Source: Deltaproteobacteria bacterium (GTDB lineage Bacteria; Myxococcota; Myxococcia; Myxococcales; 40CM-4-68-19). Taken from it: a stretch of 64,000 nucleotides of DNA. Shown piece by piece: positions 9,413-34,098 of the stretch. Every line of letters starts with the position of its first letter. The stretch's first letter is position 1. The stretch is taken from positions 124,001 to 188,000 of the forward strand of contig VBKI01000053.1 in the NCBI GenBank assembly GCA_005879535.1. Direction: 5' to 3'. The notes below the pieces were generated by a model. It ran no database searches, was not told where the DNA came from, and saw nothing but the letters and a program-made list of their open reading frames with translations. Position numbers and translations under genes: made by a program.

Positions 9413-11020
9413 ATGCTCGACGTGATGCGGTCGAACGCGAAGTCTTCACTGATCGCCCTGATTTTCGGCGCGATCATCCTCACCTTCGTCTTCTCGTTCG
9501 GGCGTGGCTCGTCGGGGTTCCGCACGCGGACGCCGGAGACGTGGGCCGCCAGAGTCAACGGCGAGCTGGTGACGGCGAGCGACTTCGCGCAAGCCTACGC
9601 GAACCGCTTCCGCCAGATGTCGGCGATGCGCGGGGGCAAGTACACGACCGACAATGCGAAGCAGGACAATCTCAAGTCGGAGACCCTCAAGGGCCTCGTC
9701 GATCAAGAGCTCATCGCGCAGCAGGCCGACGATCTCGGCATCCGGGTCAGCGACGCCGAGGTGGCCGATGCCATCGCCAGGAGCCCGCAGTTCCAGCAGG
9801 ATGGCAAGTTCGACTTCGACTACTACAAGCGGCTGGTCGAGAACGGCTACGGAATGAGCGTCACGCGCTTCGAGGAGGCGTACCGCCGCGACCTGCTCCG
9901 CGGCAAGGTCGTCCAGGCGGCCGTCGCGGGCGCCAACGTCTCGGACGACGAGGTGAAGGCCGCCTGGGCCGCGCAGCACGAGAGCGTCGCCATCGCCTGG
10001 GTCCGGTTCAACCCCTTCATGTTCCGCGACCAGGCCACGGCGAGCGACGCCGAGGTCGCGGAGTACGCGAAATCGCACGCTGACGAGATCGCGAAGAAGT
10101 ACGAGGACGAGAAGGCGACCCGGTGGACGCAGCCCGCCGCGATGAGGGTGCGCGCCATCACCGTCTCCCTGCCCCCGAACGCGACCGGCGATCAGGAGAA
10201 GGCGGCGCGCGAGAAGATCGATCAGGCGCTCGCGGAGGTGAAGGGCGGCAAGGACTTCGCCGAAGTCGCGAAGGCGCGGAGTGAGGATCAGGCGACCAAG
10301 GCGAACGGCGGCGACCTCGGGTTCGTGGCTCGCGGGCAGTCGCCCTACGGCAAGACGCTGGAGGATCAGGCCGTCCGGCTCAAGCCCGGGCAGCTGAGCG
10401 AGATCTTCAAGGATCGATCCGGATTCCACCTGCTCAAGGCGGAAGAGGAGCGGCCCGCCCGCCTGCAGCCGCTCGACGAAGTGCGCAAGCACATCGCCGC
10501 GGACCTGGTGAAGTCGCAGAAGGCGAAGGAGCTGGCGAAGCGGAAGGCGGAGGACGCCCTCGCGCAGCTTCGCGCCGGCAAGGACCTCAAGGAACTGTAT
10601 CCGGTGAAGAAGACCGAGCCCGGGCAGTTCGACTTCAGCGCCTTCACCGCTCCGCAGACGACGGAGACGGAGACGTTCCACCCGATGGGCGGCTACGTCC
10701 CCGGCGTCGGGCAGGCTCCGAAGCTCTCCGCCGCCGTATTCGCGCAGAGCCAGGCTGGCGCGATTCCGCAGGCGCCGGTGGAGGAAGGCGAGAGCTGGTA
10801 CGTATTCCGGGTGAAATCGCGCGAGCGGGCGGATCCGTCGAAGCTCGACGCGGAAGAGATGAAGTCGATGCGCGACCGGCTCGTCGGGCAGAAGCAGGGC
10901 GAGCTGTACGCGAAGTGGGTCGACTCGTTGCGGCGCAAGGCGAGGATCGTCGAGAACGAGCACGTGCTCTCGTACGACGTCGGCCCGGCGCACGAGGCGT
11001 TCCAGCCGGACGACTTCTAG
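9413..11020 (+). CDS. PpiD/SurA-type peptidyl-prolyl cis-trans isomerase
   Basis: A 535-residue envelope foldase. One N-terminal membrane anchor (LIALIFGAIILTFVFSFGRG, residues ~13-32) is followed by a SurA-like chaperone N-domain with the typical WAARVNGELVTASDFAQAY start, and a parvulin-type rotamase domain around residues 245-350 (GGKDFAEVAKARSED and GGDLGFVARGQ). The layout is that of PpiD, which assists folding of secreted proteins at the inner membrane, though shorter than E. coli PpiD. The next gene starts 2 bp after the stop, so both are probably one transcript. Confidence 0.88.
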   Translation: MLDVMRSNAKSSLIALIFGAIILTFVFSFGRGSSGFRTRTPETWAARVNGELVTASDFAQAYANRFRQMSAMRGGKYTTDNAKQDNLKSETLKGLVDQELIAQQADDLGIRVSDAEVADAIARSPQFQQDGKFDFDYYKRLVENGYGMSVTRFEEAYRRDLLRGKVVQAAVAGANVSDDEVKAAWAAQHESVAIAWVRFNPFMFRDQATASDAEVAEYAKSHADEIAKKYEDEKATRWTQPAAMRVRAITVSLPPNATGDQEKAAREKIDQALAEVKGGKDFAEVAKARSEDQATKANGGDLGFVARGQSPYGKTLEDQAVRLKPGQLSEIFKDRSGFHLLKAEEERPARLQPLDEVRKHIAADLVKSQKAKELAKRKAEDALAQLRAGKDLKELYPVKKTEPGQFDFSAFTAPQTTETETFHPMGGYVPGVGQAPKLSAAVFAQSQAGAIPQAPVEEGESWYVFRVKSRERADPSKLDAEEMKSMRDRLVGQKQGELYAKWVDSLRRKARIVENEHVLSYDVGPAHEAFQPDDF

Positions 11021-11022
11021 CC

Positions 11023-11553
11023 ATGGAGCTCGGCGACGTGGTCGTCAAGGACACGGAGGCGCGGGACGTGCGCCTCGGAGACCTCTGGCGGGACAAGCCG
11101 GCGGCGCTGGTATTCGTCCGCCATTACGGTTGAGCGTTGTGCCGGGAGCAGGCGGCCGAGTTGCGGCCGCGCGCGGATGAGTTCGCGAAGGCGGGCGGAA
11201 AGCTCGCCGTGATTGGGAACGGCTGGCCGGCCATGGCGAAGTCTTGGGCAGAGCACGTCGGGTTCCCACCCTCGGTCGCGGTCCTGACGGATCCGACGCG
11301 CAAGGCGTACGACCTCGCCGGCATGAAACGGTCCGTGGCGCTGACGCTCTTCAATCCTTTCGCGCTCGTGCGCTGGGGACGGGCGCAGCTGCACGGCTTC
11401 CGGCAGGGCAAGACGGCGGGGGATGCCTGGCAACAGGGCGGCGCGCTGGTGGTGCAGCCGGGAGGAAAGGTGACCTTCCGCTACGTCAGCCTCGGTCCGG
11501 GCGATCATCCGGGCCCGACCACACTGCTCGCCGCGTTGAAGCGCGCCGCCTGA
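11023..11553 (+). CDS. Peroxiredoxin-like protein with in-frame TGA; candidate selenoprotein (SelU/AhpC-TSA-like)
   Basis: A 176-residue thioredoxin-fold protein if the TGA at 11131-11133 is read as selenocysteine (residue 37). The region before it (LWRDKPAALVFVRHYG) and after it (ALCREQAAELRPRADEFAK) together form the F-x-R-H-x-G-C-x-x-C-R-E-Q core known in the AhpC/TSA-like PRXL2/SelU family, with U replacing the first cysteine (U-A-L-C). The frame stays open for 420 bp beyond the TGA and keeps family motifs such as LAVIGNGWPAMAKSW and DPTRKAYDLAGM. The product would act as a thiol-dependent reductase or peroxidase. The ATG lies 2 bp after the foldase stop. The alternative is a simple nonsense mutation, but the exact position and the downstream hairpin argue against it. 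Confidence 0.75.
11131..11170 (+). promoter_or_regulatory. Candidate bacterial SECIS element with Sec codon TGA
   Basis: The TGA is followed after 18 nt by GCGGCC (11152-11157) pairing perfectly with GGCCGC (11165-11170). The loop is GAGTTGC, or AGTTG if G11158 pairs with C11164. A G is present in the first two loop positions, and the apical loop begins 24 nt after the TGA, both within the known limits for bacterial SECIS elements bound by SelB. The hairpin is within the coding region, as expected in bacteria. Confidence 0.65.
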
Positions 11554-11559
11554 GCTCCG

Positions 11560-11937
11560 TCAGCGCCCTTCGGCAAGCGCCTGTATCAGCTCCTGCAGCG
11601 AATCCGCGAGGGCCTCGAATTCGTGGACGCCGGCGGCGATCAGCGGGATGCGGCCGTACCGATGATGCCGCAGCCGCGCGAGGTAGCCATATGCCTCGGC
11701 CCCTCCGTCGGTCCCGAAGAGGAGAAGCCCGGGCGTCGCGAGCGAAACCTCCTGCGACTGCGCCTCCCGCGCGATCTCCTCCGCGCTCCAGAGGATCAGC
11801 GGCCGGTTTCCCACCTTGCCCCGGCCTCCATCGTGCTGCTCGAGGAACGCGCGCAGGTCCGGCGGAAGGCCGGGGATCGCGTCCAGCGTCTCCTTCGGGG
11901 CGCCCTCGGGCGCGAGCTTCATGCCGGGCAGGTCCAT
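11560..11937 (-). CDS. SMI1/KNR4 family protein
   Basis: A 125-residue cytoplasmic protein. Features of the SMI1/KNR4 (SUKH) fold are seen in order: IPGLPPDLRAFLEQHDGG near residue 20, PLILWSAEEIAREAQ, and PGLLLFGTDGGAEAYGYL. In bacteria this superfamily includes immunity proteins of contact-dependent toxins, but many members have unknown roles and no toxin gene lies nearby. The ATG at 11935-11937 is preferred since homology begins there. It lies 7 bp downstream of proC on the same strand, so it is probably co-transcribed. Confidence 0.75.
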   Translation of the reverse strand: MDLPGMKLAPEGAPKETLDAIPGLPPDLRAFLEQHDGGRGKVGNRPLILWSAEEIAREAQSQEVSLATPGLLLFGTDGGAEAYGYLARLRHHRYGRIPLIAAGVHEFEALADSLQELIQALAEGR

Positions 11938-11944
11938 GCGTGGC

Positions 11945-12772
11945 TCATAGCTTGCGGAGGAATTCCTCGCCCAGCTCCCGGGAACGCCGTGTCGCGGCCT
12001 CGACTGCATTCATCAGGACGTTGCGCAGGCCACCCGCCTCCAGCGTATGCAATCCGGCAATGGCGGTCCCGCCGGGGCTGGTGACGCCGTCCTTGAGCAT
12101 GCCGGGATGCTGTCCGCTCTCGATCAGCAGCTTGGCGCTCCCGAGCACCGTCTGCGCGGCGAGTTGCAGGGAAGCGCGGCGGGAGAGGCCGACTTTGACG
12201 CCCGCGTCGGCCAGGGCCTCGATGATCAGGAACAGGTAGGCGGGGCCGCTGCCGGAGAGACCGGTGACGGCGTCGAGCTGCGACTCCTCGAGCAGGACGG
12301 TGAGGCCCACGCTGTCGAAGATGGTGCGCGCGGTGGCGAGATCGGCGTCGGTCGCGTGCTCCCCGAGGGCGAGCGCGGTCGCGGCGGCGCCCACTGTCGC
12401 GGGCGTGTTGGGCATGGCGCGCACGATGCGCATCGGCGGATGCAACCGCCGTTCGATGGCCTGGATGGGCACGCCAGCGGCCACGCTGATGATCAGCTTG
12501 TCGCGCGAGACGTCGGGGGAGATCCCGCGCAGGACCTGATCGAGGATCTGCGGCTTGACGCAGAGCACGACGACGTCGCTCTCGCGCGCGATTTCGGAAT
12601 TGGTGCCGCTGCGCACTCCGTAGGCTGTCACCAGCTCCTGCACGCGCTCGGGCCGGCGCGCGCTGACGAGGATCTGCCCGGGCTTTGCCGCCTTCGTGTT
12701 CAGCAGGCCCTTGAACAGCGCCTCGCCCATGTTGCCGGCGCCGATGAACCCGAGCTTCTTGTCCGTGACCAT
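11945..12772 (-). CDS. proC: Pyrroline-5-carboxylate reductase
   Basis: A 275-residue cytoplasmic enzyme that reduces 1-pyrroline-5-carboxylate to L-proline with NAD(P)H. The Rossmann signature KLGFIGAGNMGEAL is at the N-terminus, VRAMPNTPATVG marks the conserved centre, and the C-terminal dimerisation domain holds DAVTGLSGSGPAYLFLI and KDGVTSPGGTAI. The ATG at 12770-12772 is preferred; the frame upstream reaches into a palindromic repeat. It lies 70 bp downstream of an amine dehydrogenase subunit, which suggests a link with proline or related amino-acid turnover. Confidence 0.95.
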   Translation of the reverse strand: MVTDKKLGFIGAGNMGEALFKGLLNTKAAKPGQILVSARRPERVQELVTAYGVRSGTNSEIARESDVVVLCVKPQILDQVLRGISPDVSRDKLIISVAAGVPIQAIERRLHPPMRIVRAMPNTPATVGAAATALALGEHATDADLATARTIFDSVGLTVLLEESQLDAVTGLSGSGPAYLFLIIEALADAGVKVGLSRRASLQLAAQTVLGSAKLLIESGQHPGMLKDGVTSPGGTAIAGLHTLEAGGLRNVLMNAVEAATRRSRELGEEFLRKL

Positions 12773-17201: not shown

Positions 17202-17882
17202 CTACATATCGACGGGCCCGCGGGGAGGCAAGGGTCGTTCTCCAAAGATGGCGGTTCCCACGCGGACGAGCGTGGCGCCCTCCTCGATGGCGGCCTCGTA
17301 GTCGGCGCTCATGCCCATGGACAGCTCGCGGAGGCCCAAGGTGTTGCCGAGCTGGCGCAGTTGGCGGAAATACTCGCGCGGATCGCCTTCCGCGGGCGGA
17401 ATGCACATCAATCCTTCGCAAGCGAGCGCCGGCAACGCACGCACCTGCTCGAGCAGCGCGGGGACGTTCTCCGGCAGGACGCCGGCCTTCTGTGCCTCGC
17501 GCCCGACGTTCACTTCCAGCAGCACGCGCTGGACGAGGCCCGCGGCTTTCGCCCGCTTCGACAGCTCCTGCGCGAGCGCGAGGCGGTCGCAGGTATGGAT
17601 CAGCGCGGCGCGACCCACGACCAGCTTCGACTTGTTGGTCTGAAGCCCGCCGACGAAGTGCCACTCGACTCCGGACCCGAGCGCTTCCGCCTTCCCCTTC
17701 ATCTCCTGCGCGTAGTTCTCGCCGAAGATGGTCTGCCCGGCCGCGACTGCCTCGCGCAGCATCTCTACCGGCTTCGTCTTGCTCACCGCGATCAGCCGCA
17801 CCGAGGCCGGATCGCGGCCCGACCTGGAACAGGCAGCCGCGATGCGCCCGCGCACGCGCGAGAGACCCGCCGCTACGTCCAC
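17202..17882 (-). CDS. PLP homeostasis protein, YggS/PROSC family
   Basis: A 226-residue single-domain PLP-binding protein related to the alanine racemase N-terminal barrel. The lysine of VRLIAVSKTKP (about residue 35) is the PLP attachment site, and FGENYAQEMKGKA, WHFVGGLQTNKSK and LSMGMSADYEAAIEEG are family signatures. It controls cellular PLP balance rather than catalysing a known reaction. It starts at GTG 17880-17882, overlapping the end of maf by 10 bp. Confidence 0.92.
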   Translation of the reverse strand: MDVAAGLSRVRGRIAAACSRSGRDPASVRLIAVSKTKPVEMLREAVAAGQTIFGENYAQEMKGKAEALGSGVEWHFVGGLQTNKSKLVVGRAALIHTCDRLALAQELSKRAKAAGLVQRVLLEVNVGREAQKAGVLPENVPALLEQVRALPALACEGLMCIPPAEGDPREYFRQLRQLGNTLGLRELSMGMSADYEAAIEEGATLVRVGTAIFGERPLPPRGPVDM

Positions 17883-18427
17883 GGCAGCTCCACGCCCGCC
17901 TCCGCGAGCATCTGCAGCGTTTCCGCCAGCGGCAGGCCCACCACGTTGGTGAAGCTGCCTTCGATGCGTTCCACGAACGCGCCGGCGAGTCCCTGGACGG
18001 CGTAGGCCCCGGCCTTGTCGTCGCCGTCGCCGGAAGCGGCCAGCCAGCGGACCTGCGCGTCCGTGAGCGGGGCAAACTTCACCGTGGTTTCCACTGCGCG
18101 CACGCGCGGAGGGACGCAGACGGCGCTGATCACGCGGTGCTCGATCCCCGAAAGCATGCGTAGCATCCGTTCCGCATCGGACCGATCGCGCGGCTTGCCC
18201 AGCACATCCTCGCCCACCACCACGATGGTATCCGCCGCCAGCACCACTTGTCCGGGACGCGCGCAGCTTTCCGCCTTTTCCCGCGCCATCCGCAGCGCGT
18301 ACGCCACGGCAGCCTCGCCGGGCCCGCGCGTCTCGTCGATGTGCGCAGGGGCGAGCGAAAAACCCACCCCGATCCGCTCCAGGAACTCGCGCCTGCGGGG
18401 CGACGCGGAGCACAACACGAGCTTCAT
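17873..18427 (-). CDS. maf: Maf-family nucleotide pyrophosphatase
   Basis: A 184-residue cytoplasmic house-cleaning enzyme that hydrolyses non-canonical or excess nucleoside triphosphates and has been linked to septum inhibition. The N-terminal LCSASPRRREFLERIG, the AADTIVVV strand and EGSFTNVVGLPL near the C-terminus are typical Maf signatures. The ATG at 18425-18427 is chosen over a longer frame. It is divergent from the diguanylate cyclase gene, with a 56-bp shared promoter region. It overlaps yggS downstream, and the pair is probably one operon. Confidence 0.92.
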   Translation of the reverse strand: MKLVLCSASPRRREFLERIGVGFSLAPAHIDETRGPGEAAVAYALRMAREKAESCARPGQVVLAADTIVVVGEDVLGKPRDRSDAERMLRMLSGIEHRVISAVCVPPRVRAVETTVKFAPLTDAQVRWLAASGDGDDKAGAYAVQGLAGAFVERIEGSFTNVVGLPLAETLQMLAEAGVELPWT

Positions 18428-33001: not shown

Positions 33002-34098
33002 TGAGCGCCGCCTGGATCCGAAGGATGGTCCTGCCTCCCGCGGCGGCTTTTCTCCTGCAGCGCGCGCTGCTCGCCGCCGTCGCCTGGGCGCACGGCTTCG
33101 ATCCGTTTGCGGCGGAAACCTGGTCCCGCTGGGATTCGACGTACTATCTGCAGATCGCGTCGAGCGGTTATCTGCCGCTCGAACACTGCCGCCCCGAAAC
33201 GCACTACCCGGCCGACGCCTGGTGCGGCAACGCAGCCTGGTTTCCTGGCTACTCCTGGCTCGTCGCGGCCGTCGCGCATCCGCTCGGTCTTTCACCGGCC
33301 ACTGCTGCTGTCTGGATCAGCGCCTTGGCGCAGCTCGCTTGCCTCATTCTCGTCTGGGTGCTGCTCGACGATGCCCGCCGGTGGCCTCCATTGGCCTTCG
33401 CTGCCTTCTTTCCCGGCAACGTCTACATGGCGGCAGTGTTTCCGGTCTCGCTGTGCGCGCTCGCCCTGCTCTGCTGCATCCGGCTGAGCTGGTCCGGGAT
33501 GTTCAAGCGAGCGGCGCTTGCGGCAGCGGCGGCAGCCGCGTGCTACCCCACCGGGGTCCTGCTTGCGCCAGTGGTCGGGCTCTGGGCGCTTCTGCATCGC
33601 CGCTGGCACGCGACATGGGTCGTGGCGGGGGCTCTCGGCGGACTTGCGGCCGTGGTCCTGGTCATGCGGGTCCAGACCGGCGCCTGGGACGCTTTCGCCC
33701 TGGTGCAGGCCAAGTACGCATACAGCGGCAATCTTCTCGACTCCCTGGGCGCGCGGCTCAAACCGCTGGTGAATCCAAGGTATCGGGACGAGAAGGGCTT
33801 CGTCACCGGGCTGCAAACGCTTCTTTCAGCCGTCATGGTTCTCTTGCTCGCCTCCCAGGAACTGCGCCGGCGCTGGCCGGAACGGAGCTCTCTCGTTGCC
33901 CTCTGCATGGGGACATTCTGGATGACACCGCTGATGCTGGGCGGGCGGCTCTCGCTGTATCGTTCCGACGCCCTTCTTCTTCCCGCGGTGCTCCTGTTTC
34001 CGGCGTTGCCGCGCAAGGTCCAGCTCGCCTTCGTCGGCGCCGCGTTCGCCCTCTCTTTCCCGATGGCCGCGATGTTCTTTCGCGCCGTGCTGGTATGA
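33001..34098 (+). CDS. Membrane glycosyltransferase, GT-C type (PIG-V-like)
   Basis: A 365-residue polytopic membrane protein with about nine hydrophobic helices. The motif RWDSTYYLQIASSGY near residue 40 matches the W-D-x3-Y-x2-I-A-x2-G-Y element of GT-C mannosyltransferases of the PIG-V group, where the aspartate is catalytic. A lipid-linked sugar donor is assumed from family knowledge. It sits between the secretin and CpaF, where tad clusters do not normally carry such a gene, so it may glycosylate pilin or be a chance insertion. Start overlaps the cpaC stop (TGATG). Confidence 0.65.
   Translation: MSAAWIRRMVLPPAAAFLLQRALLAAVAWAHGFDPFAAETWSRWDSTYYLQIASSGYLPLEHCRPETHYPADAWCGNAAWFPGYSWLVAAVAHPLGLSPATAAVWISALAQLACLILVWVLLDDARRWPPLAFAAFFPGNVYMAAVFPVSLCALALLCCIRLSWSGMFKRAALAAAAAAACYPTGVLLAPVVGLWALLHRRWHATWVVAGALGGLAAVVLVMRVQTGAWDAFALVQAKYAYSGNLLDSLGARLKPLVNPRYRDEKGFVTGLQTLLSAVMVLLLASQELRRRWPERSSLVALCMGTFWMTPLMLGGRLSLYRSDALLLPAVLLFPALPRKVQLAFVGAAFALSFPMAAMFFRAVLV

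Follow-up and report, generated by a model that had tools for sequence, protein, structure and literature searches.

Peroxiredoxin-like (Prx-like) selenoproteins with a UxxC motif, in which U stands for selenocysteine (Sec), have been described since 2005-2008 (PMC1088965, PMC2398784). Reviews of prokaryotic selenoproteins list Prx-like proteins of PF00578 with UxxC or UxxU motifs, together with AhpC/TSA proteins of PF13911/cd02970 with a UxxS motif (PMC9312934, PMC13188914), and selenophosphate synthetase with a UxxK motif is also a listed selenoprotein (PMC13188914). In fish, SelL carries a pair of Sec residues spaced two residues apart, and both are served by a single SECIS (PMC3316567). 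For bacteria, the bSECIS model comprises an upper stem of 4-16 bp, an apical loop of 3-9 nt with G in one of its first two positions, a distance of 16-37 nt between UGA and loop, and a minimum free energy of -7.5 kcal/mol or lower (PMC13188914).

Here we analyze a stretch of 64,000 nucleotides (the window) from a draft genome of the Myxococcota, in which an earlier note had proposed a selenoprotein gene. Comparative sequence analysis leads us to put at about 0.96 the probability that the UGA at 11131-11133 is decoded as Sec in a SelL-related redox protein.

Results

The candidate selenoprotein gene occupies positions 11023-11553 on the plus strand and encodes 176 amino acids, with Sec at codon 37. 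Translation from the ATG at 11023 to the terminal TGA at 11551-11553 meets a single internal in-frame stop, the TGA at 11131-11133, and the frame is hence open apart from this codon, as the earlier note had maintained. The read-through product contains the motif FVRHYG-U-A-L-C-REQ, in which the TGA takes the place of the first Cys of a CxxC motif; this placement, also proposed earlier, is borne out by a homologue (L029) with Cys at that position. The assignment of Sec37, the first residue of U-A-L-C, draws on the occurrence of TGA in 22 genomes, on Cys in L029 and on the Sec machinery of the genome. Cys40 (TGC, 11140-11142), the presumed resolving residue, is invariant across an alignment of 26 sequences. 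A mechanical list of open reading frames includes a frame at 11137-11553 (138 amino acids) with a TTG start at 11137. Standard gene calling would either shorten the gene to 36 codons or begin it at this TTG and, because of this, the catalytic residue would be dropped from the annotation.

The read-through protein passes the Pfam gathering cut-offs of AhpC-TSA_2 (PF13911; 64.9 bits, cut-off 27) and AhpC-TSA (39 bits, cut-off 26). Over its whole length it also matches the NCBIfam model NF040769 (SelL-related redox protein) with 126.4 bits (cut-off 120) when U is entered as C, and with 117.3 bits in a DNA-based score that leaves the stop in place. At E 0.001, each of the 26 aligned homologues matches NF040769 and no second family. 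For this family, which the earlier note related to SelU/AhpC-like selenoproteins, the name SelL-related, or AhpC-TSA_2, fits better. An AlphaFold model built on 26 homologues (mean pLDDT 95.1, pTM 0.91) predicts a thioredoxin-type, peroxiredoxin-like fold in which the redox pair sits where the first long helix (residues 38-56) begins, and its top match in the PDB is human prostamide/prostaglandin F synthase (PGFS; TM 0.77), ahead of Bcp, ResA and AhpE.

The genome of the window (118 contigs, 100% complete, 1.11% contaminated) encodes the full complement of genes searched for in connection with Sec synthesis and insertion, in agreement with the earlier proposal that the organism makes selenocysteine. 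A tRNA-Sec (selC; 70.2 bits, cut-off 47) is confirmed by ARAGORN, which assigns it the anticodon TCA, and matches above cut-off are obtained for selA (500 bits, cut-off 268), selB (269.8 bits, or 302.7 with a second piece, cut-off 242) and selD (355.4 bits, cut-off 125). These genes lie on several contigs and are tied to the selenoprotein gene only by the genome assembly. The SelD protein of this genome (L018, G000:C33:15304-16236) is also a selenoprotein, with TGA in the motif GSGUACK; the hairpin predicted for its gene starts only some 7 nt after the TGA, has the loop CCCGU and falls outside the standard bSECIS model.

Within the phylum, 22 of 195 genomes carry TGA at the same codon, the window's genome and 21 others. 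The earlier note had looked to homologues for either Cys or TGA at position 37, and both are found, TGA in close homologues and Cys in L029. A selA match is present in 20 of the 22 TGA-bearing genomes, the two without it being assemblies that are 61% and 87% complete. Since selA is common in the phylum (above cut-off in 150 of 195 genomes), this co-occurrence is consistent with Sec decoding rather than strong proof of it. In the tree, the Cys form, L029 (G048:C93:4073-4573; FGCLFC), branches from within the Sec forms, a position suggestive of Sec loss in its lineage; its genome retains selA. Distant homologues from another family of the order (L032-L036) have Cys at this place (GCPVC). Scanning of genome contigs with the single protein returned only two loci, one of them in the close relative 13_1_40CM_4_68_19, and a homologue search of plasmids gave no match.

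A further variant, L030 (G057:C31:11564-12046), lacks the three U-x-x residues, with the frame kept (RHFG-CREQ), and retains the second Cys, and a 7-bp hairpin persists at the place of the SECIS. The Sec site may have been deleted here recently, unless the assembly is at fault. The SelL-related family in the phylum is nearly all Sec, with one Cys replacement and one site deletion nested among Sec forms.

Related genomes also contain a second Prx-like TGA family (L037, L040, L042) with the motif FYRG[HD]W-U-x-Y-C (FYRGDWUPYC in L040), each member having a 7-bp hairpin after the TGA with a GGU or GGC loop. This distant paralogue shares with the window protein a Sec in UxxC and a hairpin downstream of the TGA, but it differs in motif and is ResA/AhpC-like. 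Its TGA form was not found in the window's own genome.

Downstream of the TGA in the SelL-related gene, positions 11152-11170 can form the hairpin GCGGCCG-AGUUG-CGGCCGC, with a 7-bp stem (11152-11158 with 11164-11170) that starts 18 nt after the TGA and a 5-nt apical loop (AGUUG, 11159-11163) that starts 25 nt after it and has G in its second position. The perfect 6-bp stem reported earlier (11152-11157 with 11165-11170) is indeed present, but an extra pair, G11158-C11164, extends it to 7 bp, and the distance of 24 nt then given for the start of the stem fits that note's own 7-nt loop, not the stem. In stem length, loop, distance and predicted energy (-15.4 kcal/mol in a 27-nt window), the hairpin agrees with the bSECIS model. 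Taken alone, it does not stand out significantly: synonymous re-coding produces a hairpin just as good in about 11-12% of trials (p ~0.11-0.12), as a GC-rich gene encoding the peptide AAELRP is prone to form one of this kind. Across 14 distinct homologues, the stem positions pair in 96.9% of cells, as opposed to 29-60% in slid-partner controls, and eight cells have changed on both sides of the stem, a value that none of 500 shuffles reached; related sequences can exceed such shuffles, and the figure is to be read as support and not as a probability. Two homologues excluded from the 14 (L045 and L056) keep the hairpin with a 4-nt loop and a register shifted by one base. The Cys form L029 shows only a weak fold (-3.5 kcal/mol, compared to about -11 to -16 in most Sec forms), and a hairpin of this type is weak or absent in the distant Sec homologues L028, L051 and L057. 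The earlier suggestion of a SECIS-like hairpin is hence supported by covariation and by its fit to bSECIS constraints: at the sequence level, the single hairpin is suggestive, and it is the comparison across genomes that makes the reading as a SECIS firm.

Directly upstream of the selenoprotein gene, on the same strand, lies a gene for a PpiD/SurA-type peptidylprolyl isomerase (9413-11020), whose TAG stop is separated by 2 nt from the ATG at 11023. On the opposite strand, an SMI1/KNR4-like gene (11560-12009) and proC (11945-12772) are found downstream. Each of the six loci from the window's taxonomic family that carry the redox gene whole or in its 5' part (L022-L027) has the PpiD/SurA-type gene upstream, and this gene was not found within flanks of up to 1.5 kb at loci from other families. 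The two genes probably form one operon in this taxonomic family. Inspection of the redox protein revealed no hydrophobic signal segment at the N-terminus (MELGDVVVKDTEARDVRLGDLW), and the protein is probably cytoplasmic. Consequently, of the view that this is an envelope-foldase-linked reductase, we retain the conserved upstream gene within the family, the link to the envelope being one of gene order only; an envelope function beyond that is not retained.

When the window was scanned coarsely for TGA-bridged frames, using GC content by codon position, one place came up, at 34096 (plus strand), where a gene seems simply to end and the next one to begin; the same filter missed the known TGA at 11131, and its result does not exclude others in the window. 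The only tRNA called by ARAGORN in the window is a tRNA-Glu (CTC) at 17809-17897 on the minus strand, which at 89 bases is long for a tRNA-Glu.

Discussion

An in-frame TGA in a draft genome of 118 contigs could in principle stem from a sequencing or assembly error, or from decay of a Cys gene that has acquired a nonsense codon. That 21 other, separately assembled genomes have TGA at this codon refutes this explanation, to which we attach a negligible probability. Furthermore, comparison of the gene with the relative closest to it (79% identity) yields dN/dS values of 0.142 for the codons preceding the TGA and 0.146 for those that follow. Purifying selection is equal (~0.14) on the two sides, a pattern not to be expected of a broken gene. 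The same figures bear on the idea that translation simply ends at the TGA and that a shorter protein, devoid of Sec, is made from TTG 11137. The corresponding reading frame does exist, but the 36 codons that precede the TGA are as constrained as the rest and encode the first strands of the domain, which are part of the fold and are modelled with high pLDDT. Moreover, a protein starting at the TTG would keep Cys40 and lose the nucleophile position. Initiation at this TTG is thus very improbable, if marginally less so than an error or decay.

It might also be argued that the UGA is read as some other amino acid, such as Trp, owing either to an altered genetic code or to leaky read-through. Our analysis yielded no evidence in favor of such decoding, and several observations speak against it: the same gene terminates in TGA (11551-11553), the aligned position is Cys in both L029 and human PGFS, and the genome possesses a tRNA-Sec with anticodon TCA together with selA, selB and selD. 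We consider this possibility as negligible as that of a sequencing error. Decoding of the UGA as Sec is the reading that we prefer, and the gene at 11023-11553 provides a clean example of a functional stop codon.

In mechanistic terms, SelB carrying GTP and Sec-tRNA-Sec would bind the hairpin and insert Sec at the UGA. Sec37, as its selenolate, may then attack a peroxide or a disulfide, with Cys40 resolving the product to give a Sec37-Cys40 selenenylsulfide, and reduction of the latter by thioredoxin or a low-molecular-weight thiol would regenerate the enzyme. Family and active site make a peroxidase or disulfide-reductase chemistry of this kind likely. A broader proposal is conceivable, though in our estimation rather doubtful: that the UxxC SelL-related form constitutes a Sec-dominated redox enzyme widespread in the phylum, not singled out in the selenoproteome reviews consulted and operon-coupled to the periplasmic chaperone PpiD in one taxonomic family. 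If true, the operon coupling to PpiD would point to a role in protein folding or oxidative stress. More generally, the Sec, Cys and deleted forms of this family make up a small natural series on the loss of selenocysteine while the sel genes stay.

Neither NF040769 nor the term SelL-related is named in the text of the selenoprotein review or in the other selenoprotein literature searched. Prx-like UxxC selenoproteins are nonetheless already known, and an NCBI model exists for the exact family; what is new is this gene as a further member. Among solved structures, that of human PGFS (PDB 9us9, 9usa) comes closest, with E 9e-11 at the sequence level and E 2.5e-12 at the level of the fold. The motif FGCVVC of the human enzyme aligns with FGUALC of the selenoprotein, and its mutated Cys pair, C44/C47 (9usa/9us9), matches U37/C40. 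The human enzyme, however, has Cys where the window protein has Sec, and identity between the two is about 22-26%. Prostaglandin substrates are not to be expected in bacteria. The two Sec residues spaced two residues apart that define animal SelL are replaced in the window protein by a single Sec followed by Cys (U-A-L-C), and whereas one SECIS serves both Sec residues in fish, the window gene has a bacterial in-frame SECIS. Finally, the Prx-like and AhpC/TSA selenoproteins reviewed in prokaryotes likewise have Sec at the catalytic position of a peroxiredoxin-like domain, but the motif of the reviewed PF13911/cd02970 selenoprotein is UxxS, in contrast to the UxxC of the protein presented here.
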